This document shows positions 4,367-13,476 of a stretch of 64,000 nucleotides of DNA, piece by piece; the first letter of the stretch is position 1, and the number at the start of each line of letters is the position of its first letter. This stretch comes from Streptomyces hundungensis (GTDB lineage Bacteria; Actinomycetota; Actinomycetes; Streptomycetales; Streptomycetaceae): contig NZ_CP032698.1 in assembly GCF_003627815.1 (NCBI RefSeq), forward strand, positions 8,329,045-8,393,044. The letters are read 5' to 3'. Made by a program: the position numbers and the translations under genes. The notes below the pieces were generated by a model. It was not told the origin of the DNA. It saw nothing but the letters and a program-made list of their open reading frames with translations, and searched no databases.

Positions 4367-4725
4367 CGGACCTACAGGTGGACCAGGTGCCGGTCCGCTC
4401 GGCCGTGGTCCGGTGGGCGACCCGCGCAACGACCTTCGCCGCCGCCGCCCTGGACGCCTGGATTCCCGGGAGCCCCGCGGAGATGACCGTCGCGATCAGC
4501 ACGGGAAAGCACCGGACCGAAGTGCCAGTCTTCTCCGCTGCGGCCACCGCGTACACCCAGCGCGAAGTCGACCTGTCGCACGCCTTGCTCGCACACTTCG
4601 TGAGAGGCACCTCATCACCCGCCATCCTGACCGACTGGTGGAAGGAAACCCGACCGGTGGGAGTCCTGCGGTCGCGTCAGCGCGAAGCCATCCTCGAAGG
4701 CTGGACAGCCCCGCTTCTCGCATAA
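4363..4725 (+). CDS. Hypothetical protein coupled to preceding small ORF
   Basis: A 120-residue soluble protein starting at a GTG that overlaps the preceding stop. Upstream codons in the same frame lack coding character, which supports this start. It contains VRWATRATTFAAAALDAWIPG, MTVAISTGKHRTEVPVFSAA and ILTDWWKETRPVG. Its frame has strong GC3 and it is almost certainly expressed with its partner. The family is not recognised. Confidence 0.6.
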   Translation: MTDLQVDQVPVRSAVVRWATRATTFAAAALDAWIPGSPAEMTVAISTGKHRTEVPVFSAAATAYTQREVDLSHALLAHFVRGTSSPAILTDWWKETRPVGVLRSRQREAILEGWTAPLLA

Positions 4726-4864
4726 CCCCGCAGCAGACAAGACCGCGCCCGACGCTTTCTCGACAGCACCCCACCCACCCGGCAAGCCGGGCCGCCGGCA
4801 CCGCACCGCGGCCCGGGAGCCCTGTCCACGCCCTATCTCCTGTGAACGAGAAGAGCCTCAGCCC

Positions 4865-5281
4865 GTGGAAAACACAGCGGTCACTAACAACGTCGCGTCC
4901 CCACAGCGCACTGTGCTGGCCTTCGACGGTGACTGCGGCTTCTGCCATGCAGCCATCCAGCAGATCCAGCATCGAGCGCAGCCGCAGATCGAGACTGCGC
5001 CCTGGCAATTCCTCCCCCCACAACTGACGCAGCCTCACCTTCGCCGGCTGGACCGTGAAGTCCTTCTCCTCGACGGAAGCCGGGTTCTGTACGGCGGCGC
5101 TGCTGCACTCGCATACTTCCTCGGCTCCTCGTCAGCCCGCCGCTATCGAGCAACGGCACGGCTCCTGCGCCTTCCTCCCCTCAGCCTGGCTGCTCACTTG
5201 GCCTATCGGTGGGTGGCAAGGAATCGGCACCGGATGCCTGCCGGCACCGCGGCCTGCGCGATCCCCCGCACCCCCAACTGA
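4865..5281 (+). CDS. DCC-family thiol-disulfide oxidoreductase (DUF393)
   Basis: A 138-residue protein whose N-terminus carries AFDGDCGFCH (Asp21, Cys24, Cys27), the DxDCxxC motif that defines the DCC/DUF393 thioredoxin-like family. The following LLDGSRVLYGGAAALAYFL also fits the family. The cysteine pair predicts a redox role, but the partner is unknown. The GTG at 4865 has only a weak purine-rich site (gagaag) upstream. Its last codons overlap the frame of the serine hydrolase downstream. Confidence 0.85.
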   Translation: MENTAVTNNVASPQRTVLAFDGDCGFCHAAIQQIQHRAQPQIETAPWQFLPPQLTQPHLRRLDREVLLLDGSRVLYGGAAALAYFLGSSSARRYRATARLLRLPPLSLAAHLAYRWVARNRHRMPAGTAACAIPRTPN

Positions 5282-8112: not shown

Positions 8113-8969
8113 GAAGCCATCTCATTTGGGCGACTCGGTATTCTGTGAGTCATGGTGGGGATCGTTGAGCGTCTGGTGCCGGACGAGTTGTGGGAGTTGT
8201 TCCAGCGGGTGGTGCCGGAGGCGCCGTCGAGGCCGCAGGGCGGTGGTCGGCGTCGGCACGGGGACCGGGAGGTGCTGGCCGCGATTGTCTTCGTGGCCAC
8301 GTCGGGTTGTACCTGGCAGCAGCTGCCTTCGGCGTCGTTCGGGCCGTCCGGAGCGACCGCCCACCGGCGGTTCTCGGAGTGGTCGAAGGCCAGAGTGTGG
8401 GCCAAGCTCCACCGCCTGGTCCTCGACGAACTCGGCGCCCGCGGCGAACTGGACTGGTCTAGGTGCGCGATCGACTCGGTGAACATGCGGGCCCTGAAAA
8501 GGGGGACCTGACGGGTCCGAATCCTGTCGACCGGGGCAAGTACGGCTCGAAGATCCACCTGATCACCGAACGGTCCGGTCTGCCCATATCCGTCGGAATC
8601 TCCGGGGCCAACCTGCACGACAGTCAGGCCCTGATCCCGCTCGTGAAGGGCATCCCGCCGATCCGCTCGCGCCGCGGCCCGCGCCGCCGCAAGCCCAGCA
8701 AACTCCACGCCGACAAGGGCTACGACTACGCCCACCTGCGGCAATGGTTACGCGAACGCGGCATCACCCACCGCATCGCCCGCAAGGGAGTCGAGTCCTC
8801 GCAACGGCTGGGCCGCCACCGCTGGACCGTGGAACGCACCATGGCCTGGCTCGCCGGCTGCCGACGACTCCACCGCCGCTACGAACGCAAGGCCGACCAC
8901 TTCCTCGCCTTCACCAGCATCGCCTGCACCCTCATCTGCTACCGCCGACTCGCCAAATGAGATGACTTC
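8113..8969 (+). mobile_element. IS5-family insertion sequence, 857 bp
   Basis: The ends carry imperfect inverted repeats beginning gaag(c/t)catctcatttgg. The element is flanked by TAA at 8110-8112 and 8970-8972, a TNA-type 3-base target duplication as in the IS1031 group of IS5. The boundaries are confirmed because excision restores the host reading frame. It encodes a two-frame transposase. Confidence 0.9.
8152..8960 (+). CDS. IS5-family transposase in two overlapping frames
   Basis: OrfA (8152-8511) has the N-terminal DUF4096-like domain and the first catalytic Asp (CAIDSVNMR). OrfB lies in the -1 frame (open 8463-8960) and supplies the second Asp (LHADKGYDY) and the Glu (TVERTMAWL). The frames overlap across a run aaaaggggg at about 8497-8505, a plausible slippery site for programmed -1 frameshifting, which is the normal arrangement in this group. 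The full DDE set is present, so the element is probably active. Confidence 0.88.
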
Positions 8970-9193
8970 TAAACACCGAGCGCAGACGGTTCATCAGCTG
9001 CCACGAAAGATAGGCGCATCCCGTGCCGCAGGCAGCTAGGAGAAGGATCCCCAGGAGAAGCATCCTGACAGACTATCCACCCAGGTCAGAGGAGCTCGCT
9101 CGGCAGTCTCCGATGTGGTGTGCGGCCCGTAGGTAGGGGTGCGTCGGAGGCCAGGTGTGTCCGGGTGTCTCCTGGCGGAACAGGGAAGGCGCG

Positions 9194-10202
9194 ATGACCG
9201 AAGAAGCCGGGAAGGTTGATGATGGCGAGCAGGCGGTGCTGGAGGCGCTCGGGGCGGTGCTCGCCGCGGTACCGTCGGCCGGAACGGGCTGGACCGATGA
9301 GCTCTGGGACGTCTATGGGGCGTACGAGGCAGGTCGGTTGGGGCAGGGGCAGCCGCCGCAACTCACGGCCGAACAGTCTGCCCGATTCGCTTCTCAGCGG
9401 CATCGCCAACAACTTTCCGACCAGGCACATGGACTGGTGCGCAGGCTCCGGGAGCGGGCGGAGCAGGCGCGGCTCCTGTCGCCTGCCACGGTGGCCGAGC
9501 TCGCCGTGCACCTCGTACATGCCCAACTGGCCGCACATGAGGCGGTCAACCTGCTGGCCGCTCTGGGAGCCCCGCACGGCGAGAGGGCGCTACTCGCCCT
9601 CGCCCGGGACACGGGGATCCCTGAGGGGGACAGGCTCTGGGTCCGCGAGCGGCTGTTCGTGTCGCGCCGGGACGGATACCGTGCCCGAGGCCGACTGGCA
9701 GTGGATGGCGAGGAGCCGCTGCTTCCGGCCGCCGTCCGCGAACTTCCCACCGGTATCGGGGGAACCCTGGCCCTTCCGGTCGATCCCGTCAGCGCCCGGG
9801 CGGCGCTCGACGCGTTGCTGCCGCCTGCCCCGCTCTCCTTGCCGGAGCCGCCGCCGGAGTGGACGGCCGGCTGGGACGGGCTCGACGAGCATGATGAGTA
9901 CCGTCCGGAATGGCTCGAAGTCCGTTTGCTCGTACGTGAGTTGATGCCCACGGCGCAGAAGGTCAGCCGGGAGCGGATGGCCGAGGCGGAGCGGGAGTGT
10001 GTGCTGCTCGGGCTCGGCGGTGGTGAGGGGGAGTTTGCGCCACTCTGGACCACCCGGATCGCCGCATGGCTGGCAAGCGAGGTCTTCGACGCCCTGAGCC
10101 GTGACCCCCACCCGGCCCGCCTGGCGCCCTGGGCGATGGACCTCGCTGGGCAGTACGTGTGGCGTGGCATGGCCGTCGAGGAAGCACGTGCCTTCCTGCG
10201 GC
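9194..10202 (+). pseudogene. Hypothetical gene, 5' part, interrupted by IS21-family element
   Basis: A helical, acidic protein beginning MTEEAGKVDDGEQAVLEALG, with a long Ala/Leu/Glu-rich middle (VAELAVHLVHAQLAAHEAVN) and no family I recognise. The frame runs through VEEARAFLR into the end of the IS21 element, where it picks up eleven foreign codons before a stop at 10240. Removing the element and one CTGCGGC copy joins it to 13421-13476 and gives an intact protein of 354 residues ending GHLPD. It is divergent from the membrane gene at 9063. The start ATG at 9194 has a ggaaggc site upstream. Confidence 0.8.
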
Positions 10203-10396
10203 TGGCTTTGTTCACGTTCAGCAGCAGCGTTTGTCGATGAGTTCCAGCAGCGGTTGGTCAGCATCTGGGTCGCGGATGTTCACGAGAAGTAGCGGCAGTG
10301 CGGTGTCGATGAGGCGATCATCGTGAGGGAGCACTGCTGCAGTTCACGTGGAGTCTCAACCGCTCGCATCCTGGACGAAGATGCGATGATCTGTTC

Positions 10397-10846
10397 GTGG
10401 TGACAGATGTCGAGTGGGCTCGGATTCGGAAGGGCCTGCGCTTCGGGCAGGTCTTCGAGGGCACTGTGGTGAAGGTTCCCAGACCCGGTGCGATCGGGAT
10501 CTTCGTAGACATCGGCCTGAGTGTCGGAGGCTTTGTCGACGTTCTGCTGCTGCCGAGCGAGGGCGAAGACTGGCCAGCGGAGGGCACTGTTGCCGATTTC
10601 GAGATCTGGTGGGCAGACAGCCGCCAGCAGATCCGGCTGAAGCCGTACGACTCTCGATATCTGCGGACCGACTTCACAGACTTCGTCGAACGCTTCCGTC
10701 CCAGTTGGCCTGCCGACGTCGGCCAGCCCGTTCATGACTCGGGGCCTGTCACTCCCGAAGAGTTGCGGGCCCTGCTTCGCTCCGATGGGTCGTCGGCCAG
10801 CTCCCCTGAGACCGGAGAAGTGGCCGACGCTCCCAGCGGAACCTAG
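10397..10846 (+). CDS. S1 RNA-binding domain protein, passenger in IS21-family element
   Basis: A 149-residue protein with one S1-like OB fold at about residues 12-65: GLRFGQVFEGTVVKV followed by IGIFVDIGLSVGGFVDVLLLP and a short strand-rich end (QIRLKPYDSRYL). S1 domains bind single-stranded RNA. The C-terminal third is acidic and disordered-looking. It starts at a GTG (10397, or 10400) and its stop overlaps the istB stop convergently. It lies wholly inside the element, so it moved with it. Its role is unknown; similar one-domain proteins are common in streptomycetes as ordinary genes. Confidence 0.82.
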   Translation: MVTDVEWARIRKGLRFGQVFEGTVVKVPRPGAIGIFVDIGLSVGGFVDVLLLPSEGEDWPAEGTVADFEIWWADSRQQIRLKPYDSRYLRTDFTDFVERFRPSWPADVGQPVHDSGPVTPEELRALLRSDGSSASSPETGEVADAPSGT

Positions 10847-11634
10847 CTGGCCGCGGCTTCGGCGCGGGCTCGGGTGCTGGCGAGGCGGTAGGAGTCGGTG
10901 CCGGTCTCGATGATGGTGCCGTTGAAGGTGAGGCGGTCGACGATGGCCGCGCAGAGGCGAGGGTCGGTGAACGTCTTGGTCCAGCCGCCGAAGGACTCGT
11001 TTGAGGCGATGGCCACGCTGTTCCTTTCCTCCCGCTCGGTCAGAACCTGGAACAGGAGCTCGGCGCCGCGGCGGTCGAGTTCCATGTAGCCGAGTTCGTC
11101 GATGCAGAGAAGGTCGACGCGGCCGTAGCGGGCGATCGTCTTGGAGAGCTGCTTCTCGTCGGCGGCCTCGACGAGTTCGTTGACCAGCTTCGTCGCCAGG
11201 ACGTACTTGACCCGGTAGCCGGCCATCGCCGCCTCGGTTCCCAGCGCGATGAGCATGTGGGACTTGCCTGTTCCGGAGTCGCCGATCAGGCAGAGCGGCT
11301 GGCTCTTCTTGATCCATTCGCAGCTGGCGAGGGTGTGGATGGTGGCCGCGTCGATGTTGGGGTTCGCGTCGAAGTCGAAGGTCCGTAGGGACTTGTCCCG
11401 GGGGAATCCGGCTGCTTTGATTCGGCGCTCGGAACGGCGTCGGGCCCGGTCGTCGCACTCGGCCATCAGCAGCTCGGCGAGGAAGCCGCGGTAGGTCATC
11501 TGGTCCTTCATAGCCCGGTCGGCGATGTCGGCGAACTCGTTCCTGATCGACGGCAGCCGCAACAGGCGGCATGCGGTGTCGATGGCCGTGTTGGCGGCCT
11601 GCTCGGTCAGTCCTCGCTGGCGGGGCAGGGTCAC
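10843..11634 (-). CDS. istB: IS21 helper ATPase IstB
   Basis: A 263-residue AAA+ ATPase that forms the target-loading helper complex for IstA. Walker A is GDSGTGKS (118-125), Walker B is VDLLCIDELGYM, and the N-terminal helical domain is complete. The GTG start overlaps the istA stop as GTGA at 11631-11634, the coupled arrangement usual for IS21. Length and motifs match working family members. It ends against the passenger S1 gene rather than near the element end, which is unusual. Confidence 0.95.
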   Translation of the reverse strand: MTLPRQRGLTEQAANTAIDTACRLLRLPSIRNEFADIADRAMKDQMTYRGFLAELLMAECDDRARRRSERRIKAAGFPRDKSLRTFDFDANPNIDAATIHTLASCEWIKKSQPLCLIGDSGTGKSHMLIALGTEAAMAGYRVKYVLATKLVNELVEAADEKQLSKTIARYGRVDLLCIDELGYMELDRRGAELLFQVLTEREERNSVAIASNESFGGWTKTFTDPRLCAAIVDRLTFNGTIIETGTDSYRLASTRARAEAAAS

Positions 11635-13268
11635 TGTGCTTCTCCCTCGCGGTGTTCACCGCCGCTGGCGCGACGGCGTCGGAGCAGTTGGTCGTAGTGG
11701 GTCACCGAGGGCAGCGGCCTGGTGTCCGGGGGAAGATGGGCGAGCCGCCATTCGTGCAGAAACGTCACGGTCGCCCTCGCGGCACCGGCCGACGAGGGTT
11801 TCCCGGTGGGTTCGGCTTCGGCCTGGGCGATCTTGCGGGCTTCGAGGGCGACCGCGTCCGCGGTCAGTGCCCCGGCCCGTAGAGCCATCGCGAGGCCGGC
11901 GACCAGGTGCTCGTGCGAGACGTGGCGGGCCAGCAGCAGAACCTCGATCAAGGCCCTGGTGCCGGCGGTGTCTCCGTGGGCCTTGACCGCCGCGGCCCAC
12001 CAGGCGTCATGGACCGGGGTGAACTTGCCCGCAGAGCGGGCTTGTTCGAGTGCGGTCGCGCCGGGGAAGGCACCCGGCTTGCGGATCAGAGCTTCGAGGT
12101 AGTGGTCCAGATCCAGGCGGCAGCCACCCTTCGCGATCAGCCGCTCATGCCGGGCCACTTCCACATTCCGATCGAAAACCACCAGGTGAGAGGCATGCAG
12201 TACGACCCGGACCCGTTTGCCGATCAGCCGGACCGGGACCGAGTAACGGTTCGTGCGGACCGCGATCTGGCTGTAGCGGTCGACTCGCGGAGTGAAGAGC
12301 CGGCCCGTCTCGAAGGGCTCTTCCGGCAGCGGCATCAGCAGCGGCCGCTCGACCTGGAAGTACTCGTCGATCGTCCGCGGCCGCGAACCGATCCGACGCC
12401 GCCCATCGTGAAGATCCCACTGGTCAACGAGTTCGTTCAGCTCGGCCAGCGAGTTGACCTCGGGCACCGGGGTGAAGTGGTTGCGACGGAAGTAGCCGAT
12501 CTGTCCCTCCACTCCGCCCTTCTCGTGTGCGCCCTCGATGCCCGGTCGGCAGTAGAAGCTCTCGATCCCGAAGTGCGACCTGAACGCAATCCACCGGTCG
12601 GCCTCCACCCGGGCCCGGCTCAGGCCCAGCACCCGGGCAACAGCGGCTTTGAGGTTGTCGTAACGGACCTTGCTCCGCGGGACCCCGCCCAGCGTCCGTA
12701 GCGCGTGGACGTGCCCTTCGAAGAAGGCTTCCTGCCCGCAAGATGCGAAGACGCGGTGGACGGCCTTGCCCGAGTAGGAAAGACGGAAGGAGAACAAGTA
12801 GCAGGTCACAAGCTCGCCAGCGAGCCGGATGGTCACGTCGCCGAAGTCGACCTCGGCCTCCATGCCGGGCTGGTGGGTCTGCGGCACGAACGCCTCGACC
12901 GGCGCCTTCCCCGACTCCACAAGGATCTGCGGTTTCCGGTCACTCACGTAGCGCCGGACCATCTGGTAAGAGACGTCCGCGGCGTGCTCCTCGACCAGGC
13001 GGTGGAAGATCCGCGTGATCGTGTGCCGCTGCTTGCGCGGCGCATCCAGATCTGCCAGCAGCATCCCGTCGATCAGCGACTTGTACGGGTCCAACGCGGT
13101 CGGTCGCGGCGGCAGCTGCTTCCTCGGCTCCGGCCAGACCGAGTCCACGGCCTTGCGGACCGTCCGCCACGACACGTTGTACTTGCGCTCGATCTCCCGG
13201 ATCTTCATGCCGCCGCGGTGGTCCCGACGGATCGCCGCGTACAGCTCTACCTTCGACATCTGCGGCAT
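11631..13268 (-). CDS. istA: IS21 transposase IstA
   Basis: A 545-residue transposase. It has an N-terminal helix-turn-helix (KIREIERKYNVSWRTVRKAV), then an RNase H-like core with catalytic residues in MEAEVDFGD, KVRYDNLKAAV and GAHEKGGVEGQI (D, D, E), and a C-terminal beta-barrel (NRYSVPVRLIGKRVRVVLHA). Length and motifs are complete. The ATG at 13268 lies about 145 bases inside the element end. A fragment of a close relative is at 2873-2955. Confidence 0.95.
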   Translation of the reverse strand: MPQMSKVELYAAIRRDHRGGMKIREIERKYNVSWRTVRKAVDSVWPEPRKQLPPRPTALDPYKSLIDGMLLADLDAPRKQRHTITRIFHRLVEEHAADVSYQMVRRYVSDRKPQILVESGKAPVEAFVPQTHQPGMEAEVDFGDVTIRLAGELVTCYLFSFRLSYSGKAVHRVFASCGQEAFFEGHVHALRTLGGVPRSKVRYDNLKAAVARVLGLSRARVEADRWIAFRSHFGIESFYCRPGIEGAHEKGGVEGQIGYFRRNHFTPVPEVNSLAELNELVDQWDLHDGRRRIGSRPRTIDEYFQVERPLLMPLPEEPFETGRLFTPRVDRYSQIAVRTNRYSVPVRLIGKRVRVVLHASHLVVFDRNVEVARHERLIAKGGCRLDLDHYLEALIRKPGAFPGATALEQARSAGKFTPVHDAWWAAAVKAHGDTAGTRALIEVLLLARHVSHEHLVAGLAMALRAGALTADAVALEARKIAQAEAEPTGKPSSAGAARATVTFLHEWRLAHLPPDTRPLPSVTHYDQLLRRRRASGGEHREGEAQ

Positions 13269-13413
13269 GACCAGGACCTTTCACCGGGAGCATCCCGATG
13301 CTCCCGTGGCAAGCACCCCGGCGACTTCAAAACTCGTGAACATCACCCGACCGTGGATCCGGGCGCCTCCCAAACCCATGAACAATGCGCTTCACAACCC
13401 GTGAACAAAGCCA

Positions 13414-13476
13414 CTGCGGCGGACCGGGGACGAGGTGCCGTACAGCCTGCTGGTGCTCGGGCATCTCCCTGACTGA
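13414..13476 (+). pseudogene. 3' tail of the gene interrupted by the IS21-family element
   Basis: After the second CTGCGGC copy the host frame resumes as RTGDEVPYSLLVLGHLPD and stops at 13474-13476. It continues the gene beginning at 9194. Beyond it, 13477-13637 shows no gene. Confidence 0.78.

Follow-up and report, generated by a model that had tools for sequence, protein, structure and literature searches.

The element at the right end of the chromosome

The window, i.e. the whole stretch of 64,000 nucleotides that was analysed, represents the last 64 kb (right end) of the linear Streptomyces chromosome (8.39 Mb, single contig) and contains a complete IS21 element of 3211 bp, hereafter WIN, which comprises istA, istB, inverted ends and a third gene encoding a protein with an S1-like domain (the S1 gene). 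This gene sits between the istB stop codon and the istB-side end (IRR; the other end is termed IRL) and is convergent with istB, the stop codons of the two overlapping. Its GC content at third codon positions (73.8%) is lower than that of istA (85.0%) and istB (90.5%). As aligned with the solved IstA of IS5376, the IstA protein of WIN keeps the D, D and E positions, which we take to be the catalytic residues.

The two ends form a perfect 14-bp inverted repeat (TGGCTTTGTTCACG / CGTGAACAAAGCCA) accompanied by subterminal repeats (IRL has three, IRR two to three), and both ends are bordered on the outside by a direct repeat of 7 bp (Table 1). Deletion of the element together with one copy of this repeat turns a 361-aa frame ending inside the element into a 367-aa frame, and a distant homologue of the host gene (L187; L-numbers denote the compared loci) aligns across the rejoined site, while the closer L184 stops just before the join. 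Since the host gene occurs in just 4 of 61 genomes, this one included, the comparison was limited to distant homologues, with no empty site in close kin. The target repeat, the matching ends, the subterminal repeats and the restoration of the host frame, from which a first-pass annotation of the sequence had drawn the limits of the element, are all borne out, and so is its complete S1 gene beyond istB in the opposite orientation. A second copy (G000:C1:109201-112411), situated 109 kb from the opposite end of the same chromosome, is 100% identical over all 3211 bp with the S1 gene included, and the S1 gene thus travels with the element.

Table 1. Features of WIN and its insertion site, with positions in the window
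Feature	Position	Strand	Evidence
Interrupted host gene, left part	9155-10202	+	no significant Pfam match
Target repeat CTGCGGC, left copy	10196-10202		
WIN, complete IS21 element	10203-13413		
IRR, 14-bp terminal inverted repeat, istB side	10203-10216	+	
IRR end module, conserved over about 95 bp among relatives	10203-10297	+	conserved box 10275-10296
Passenger gene, 149 aa, S1-like domain	10397-10846	+	GTG start; stop overlaps istB stop
Weak hairpin at the 3' end of the S1 gene	10790-10830		z -2.0; not clearly the hairpin of the relatives
istB, AAA+ helper ATPase	10843-11634	-	NCBIfam NF038214, 258.9 bits (cut-off 200); PF01695
istA, DDE transposase	11631-13268	-	NCBIfam NF033546, 230.7 bits (cut-off 160); IS5376 IstA alignment
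IRL end, three subterminal repeats	13325-13413	-	terminal 14 bp at 13400-13413
Target repeat CTGCGGC, right copy	13414-13420		
Interrupted host gene, right part	13421-13476	+	

Cargo and borders of the related elements

The extra DNA beyond istB, which had been singled out as the mark of an undescribed element type, is present but not special to WIN: such DNA, holding another gene, occurs in most of the relatives that were compared. Eighty stretches were chosen by us from at least about 165 listed IRR places, mostly with at most two mismatches, and Streptomyces elements whose ends are of the same type and whose istAB is 83-93% identical hold other genes in the slot of S1. Sixteen elements, obtained from the IRR stretches and a similarity search, and in addition L073, have both ends and istA/istB homology; the IRR-to-istB slots of the sixteen measure 551-1257 bp and contain 14 kinds of cargo. 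Twenty cargo proteins, one per slot chosen by us, were annotated with Pfam (E up to 0.01), and matches were obtained to peptidase S51 (L041), YunG (L042), YdjC (L043), methyltransferases (L044, L048, L112 and L124), APH (L045), SUKH (L046), acetyltransferases (L049, L052 and L119), FolD (L110; PF02882, E 1.2e-57) and RidA (L154), with no match at this threshold for six of the twenty (L039, L050, L055, L113, L121 and L134). Seven of these loci (L055, L110, L112, L113, L119, L124 and L154) lie outside the sixteen elements. At L110, with IRR and an istB remnant alongside, the FolD-type cargo represents an additional copy of an enzyme of the housekeeping type. The 98-aa cargo protein in the slots of L050 and L145, for which Pfam gave no match, weakly matches the end part of AbiEii in PADLOC (E 4.8e-7). 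A plasmid search matched 30 of 308 records, of which 12 were examined together with L180, and the cargo found there includes HAD-type hydrolases (L203-L206, representing one element, L207 and L210), a SnoaL-like and MarR pair (L211), a methyltransferase (L212), a YdjC-type deacetylase (L213), an 83-aa protein (L214) and a 326-aa protein (L208).

In a sample taken by whole-element similarity (L038-L066, 29 loci), 14 have a strong IRR, and 13 of these 14 slots are at least 551 bp long, the remaining one (L058) being 183 bp; the other 15 loci, having no strong IRR in the fetched stretch, are uninformative, and the IRR profile was partly built from the same elements. Among 88 distinct strong IRR ends, 36 have the 3' part of istB within 1.7 kb, with slot lengths of 527-1320 bp in 34 of them and short slots in the other two (L058, 180 bp; L101, 128 bp), while 52 are without it within that distance, some of them keeping istA scraps. 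Twelve cargo families recur in at least two loci behind these 88 ends, each in one orientation, whereas none of 85 host-side flanks recurs at 200 bp or more.

Identical or nearly identical elements at different sites of single strains point to the same borders. Two copies of a methyltransferase element in G165 differ by one mismatch in 3588 bp and are flanked by the target site duplications (TSDs) CAACCG and AGCATC, and HAD-carrying elements on two plasmids of NBC_01650 show no mismatch in 3600 bp and have the TSDs GGCGGC and CTGCAG. The same HAD element is present in NBC_01005 and NBC_01592 at the first of the NBC_01650 sites (GGCGGC), and these two are therefore not independent insertions. 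Short TSDs are usual for the IS21 family. Of the sixteen elements, L039 occupies its entire contig and offers no flanks, and 9 of the other 15 have TSDs of 6-8 bp; so do 7 of 11 additional complete insertions, three of which lie at a single site. The ends are thereby shown to be the borders, and the cargo-bearing elements to transpose as a unit.

The S1 gene itself is retained in other insertions with the same ends and different TSDs, which the first-pass annotation had named as support. Apart from the identical copy of WIN, an S1 element with both ends and 91% identity occurs in S. virginiae (L067; TSD CCCCAG), with L038 apparently at the same place, and another with both ends and broken istA and istB frames in S. 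antimicrobicus (L073; TSD GATGTG). Plasmid L180 contains S1, istB and istA but no IRR. In all, S1 homologues stand behind the same end at 11 distinct places, which contradicts the contrary case of an S1 gene found only by itself at this locus. Once the table rows recognised as the same place had been merged, 19 of 36 S1 loci of at least 70% identity have IRR or istAB remnants (L071 only a small distant piece) and 17 are without IS21 traces, while none of 25 loci below 70% has either. S1 thus exists apart from IS21 as well, and one S1 branch is tied to the element.

The related loci are nearly all from Streptomyces (32 of 33 records are so named, and one is Actinacidiphila). The IRR motif was found in 174 of 392 Streptomyces genomes, and a reversed control pattern in 2; in a class-wide set of 296 genomes, 12 of the 28 Streptomyces genomes matched, as did 3 of the remaining 268, each of the latter at the maximum of three mismatches, and the control matched once. 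DNA resembling istAB has a wider range, with matches of lower identity on plasmids of Rhodococcus, Mycobacterium and others.

Empty and shortened forms and cargo turnover

Homologues without S1 that end just after istB, which had been named beforehand as a finding that would speak against the element, do occur. L209, on a plasmid, is complete with both ends, istA and istB but no cargo (2742 bp), and the L058/L151 stretch is without S1 and ends just after istB, with no IRL found. The finding stands in spite of these relatives, since the second, identical copy establishes that the S1 gene belongs to WIN; what they show is that this gene is a passenger. Compared with the loaded L041, which is 962 bp longer, the empty L209 has 95.8% identity in the first 95 bp and 93.1% in a stretch of 2698 columns, and blastn seemingly places part of the end module twice in this comparison. 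Capture of cargo through a second, outer IRR was considered and is unsupported, as a leave-one-out profile of the conserved box gave no convincing second copy in 33 slots, the best case being matched by 12 of 200 shuffles.

Elements reduced in the other direction are also found. L144, L145 and L147 have both ends and 6-bp target repeats but no complete istA or istB, while L113 and L171, likewise shortened, retain both ends but lack a target repeat. In two genomes (L178:301-4842 and L179:301-4841), IRR-like ends form an inverted pair that encloses about 4.54 kb free of istA/istB matches; these possibly belong to another transposon with related ends.

The empty elements have a strong hairpin between IRR and istB (z -4.8 in L209 and z -7.7 in the L058/L151 stretch). 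Among 14 loaded slots in which a clear hairpin was placed, all but L112 have it on the 3' side of the cargo; nine of these 13 have plus-oriented cargo with the hairpin next to istB, and four have minus-oriented cargo with the hairpin next to IRR. The associated p value of 0.005 exaggerates the strength of this pattern, since the hand-entered tally counts close kin (L045/L129 and L117/L154) apart. The tally covers no slots that lack a clear hairpin, such as those of the S1 elements, in which the 3' end of S1 folds weakly. We infer that the slot hairpin is a transcription terminator.

In a tree of 16 istAB backbones, WIN and L038, both with S1, form a pair (100/100) whose sister (100/99) is L039 with a 258-aa gene, while L073, also with S1, is located elsewhere. 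Four sister pairs with 100/100 support have different cargo (L046/L049, L050/L052, L041/L042 and L043/L121), and L048 and L051, which contain the same methyltransferase, are on separate backbones. Because sister pairs differ in cargo, and S1 and one methyltransferase are each found on two backbones, the cargo has changed more than the backbones and does not follow the backbone tree.

Interpretation and alternatives

WIN is in all likelihood a mobile IS21-type element in which a motor (istA, istB and both ends) is combined with a slot for passengers that lies between the istB stop codon and IRR. S1 is one case of a variable slot, wider than could be seen from WIN alone, and we read the group as a transporter IS (tIS) form of IS21 that is common in Streptomyces and has mostly one gene in the slot, transporter ISs themselves being a known idea. 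Judging from the IS21 literature, IstA would bind the repeated sites in both ends and IstB would supply the target. All DNA between the ends, passenger included, moves as a unit and leaves a target repeat of 6-8 bp. The passenger does not belong to the motor, as relatives either have an unrelated gene in its place or lack one altogether. Often istAB is lost while end and passenger stay; the shortened copies, some of which keep both ends and target repeats, may have been moved in trans, and the passenger may benefit the host.

Several observations weigh against this interpretation. No target repeat was found in 6 of the 15 two-flanked complete elements and in 4 of the 11 further ones, and the second copy of WIN also lacks one. 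That copy lies inside an apparent transposase gene of another insertion sequence, presumably of the IS256 type, and its flanks (L002:1201-1500 and 4712-5200) resemble two separate parts of one transposase gene, of which a part seems to be missing; a search of this genome gave no intact version. Both the missing repeat and the split flanks fit a deletion adjacent to the insertion, and deletions of this kind are reported for ISPve1 of the IS21 family in the accessible text of PMC9330008. The istA or istB frames are broken in at least six relatives (L042, L046, L049, L051, L073 and L121), so that not all related elements are active. Slots with two genes occur (L176 and L144/L211), and a single gene is thus the common case and no rule. 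Seven pairs with the same cargo diverge about equally in slot and backbone; in WIN and L038 the slot is 95.6%, istB 93.4% and istA 91.8% identical, and in WIN and L073 the values are 78.2%, 88.3% and 82.0%, respectively. As slot identity is not consistently above backbone identity, recent exchange of cassettes between backbones is unsupported, and the backbone tree shows cargo turnover over longer time only. In addition, the sampling followed similarity to WIN or its IRR motif.

A bolder reading, put forward only tentatively, is that Streptomyces possesses a cassette-like IS21 system, in which single genes would be loaded and exchanged in a fixed slot between the istB stop codon and the end module of about 95 bp, often marked by a strong hairpin, and in which the motors would spread genes and then be lost, leaving end-marked single genes throughout the genus.

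It is rather unlikely that the cargo is neutral DNA trapped by chance, with no slot gene of importance to host or element. The mixed kinds of cargo, including the proteins without a Pfam match, would agree with this, as would the ratio of nonsynonymous to synonymous substitution rates (dN/dS) of S1, which ranges from 0.15 to 0.66 and indicates weaker constraint than that on istB (0.04-0.13, 21 pairs). However, the S1 ratio is below 1 in all 45 pairs, and the gene is accordingly under purifying selection; one copy, in L078, has an in-frame stop. The slots hold open frames of the same families in the same orientation across different genomes, and S1 remains where istAB is reduced or lost.

Still less probable is a role of the S1 protein as a third transposition factor of this IS21 branch, acting in regulation, at the RNA level or in target choice. 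Its retention at 11 places behind IRR and the selection on its sequence could be so explained, but backbones of 83-92% identity carry unrelated genes instead, the complete L209 has none, homologues without IS21 traces make up 17 of 36 loci at or above 70% identity and all 25 below, and the constraint on istB is much stronger. Of the two options left by the first-pass annotation, helper or hitch-hiking cargo, cargo fits better because related elements hold unrelated genes in the place of S1. Finally, an S1 host gene lying outside an ordinary IS21 copy, to which the end of some related elements 156-183 bp past istB might point, is practically excluded, being contradicted by the identical copy with the same limits at a second site, by the target repeat outside the S1 gene, and by a host frame that is restored only when the S1 gene is removed too.

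As to the passenger protein, the Pfam S1 match (17.8 bits) is below the curated cut-off of 22 and no NCBIfam match was obtained, but the predicted fold is S1-like. The predicted fold is modest (mean pLDDT 66.4, pTM 0.56, two C-terminal stretches below 50), and its best matches in the PDB are S1-domain proteins, including ribosomal protein S1 domains (best E 9.5e-6); a sequence search of solved structures gave two weak methyltransferase matches only (E about 0.04). A relative on plasmid L182 (L182:5992-6801) contains an S1-like part followed by a SUKH-3 immunity domain (E 3.8e-27). That S1 takes part in protection, possibly in immunity or RNA protection, is a fair guess and no more; PADLOC gave no match for the S1 protein that would link it to defence. 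The gene on L182 adjoins two tyrosine recombinase genes. A phage link was also considered, and none of 18 viral-contig stretches that matched the pattern was confirmed as an S1 relative.

The accessible text of PMC10122671 and PMC11208146 describes IS21 as a two-gene element between two ends, and that of PMC10122671 gives terminal inverted repeats with several repeated sites as a requirement. WIN agrees with IS21 and IS5376 in that IstA and IstB pass the curated models and in its repeated end sites and short target repeats, but departs from the strict two-gene layout by the third gene within the ends of both identical copies. Transporter ISs, i.e. ISs with passenger genes unrelated to transposition, and mobile insertion cassettes (MICs) are introduced in the portions available of PMC3129680 and PMC9330008. 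The passenger of WIN is of the tIS kind, being unrelated to transposition, replaced in relatives and absent in L209, and the difference lies in the many passengers in one fixed slot of one backbone group. MICs have no transposase of their own and can be mobilised in trans by a related one; the layout without a transposase is seen in L144, L145 and L147, whereas WIN has its own istAB. In a composite transposon two IS copies flank the cargo, but WIN is a single element with the cargo inside and its other copy near the far chromosome end. IstA and IstB are relatives of TnsB and TnsC according to the available part of PMC10293859, and Tn7-like transposons likewise combine a DDE transposase and an AAA+ partner with cargo behind; WIN differs in having three genes in 3.2 kb and no leftover gene as target selector. 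No IS21 group with a passenger slot was found in the open-access literature, a search that left ISfinder, TnPedia and most subscription papers outside and is thus no proof of absence, and no IS21 element with a passenger appears in the accessible portions of PMC7371123, PMC10293859, PMC2516522 and PMC11092175.

Should each element of the group routinely carry along one gene of host type, many Streptomyces genes next to istB, whether 'hypothetical' or similar to resistance genes, would be mobile cargo, and the IRR end motif would be a handle for finding such elements. The empty and loaded elements at 93-96% identity offer a tractable case of how a minimal transposon gains cargo. Close to WIN, the window contains at 8152-8960 two overlapping frames that resemble a split transposase, presumably of the IS5 type.

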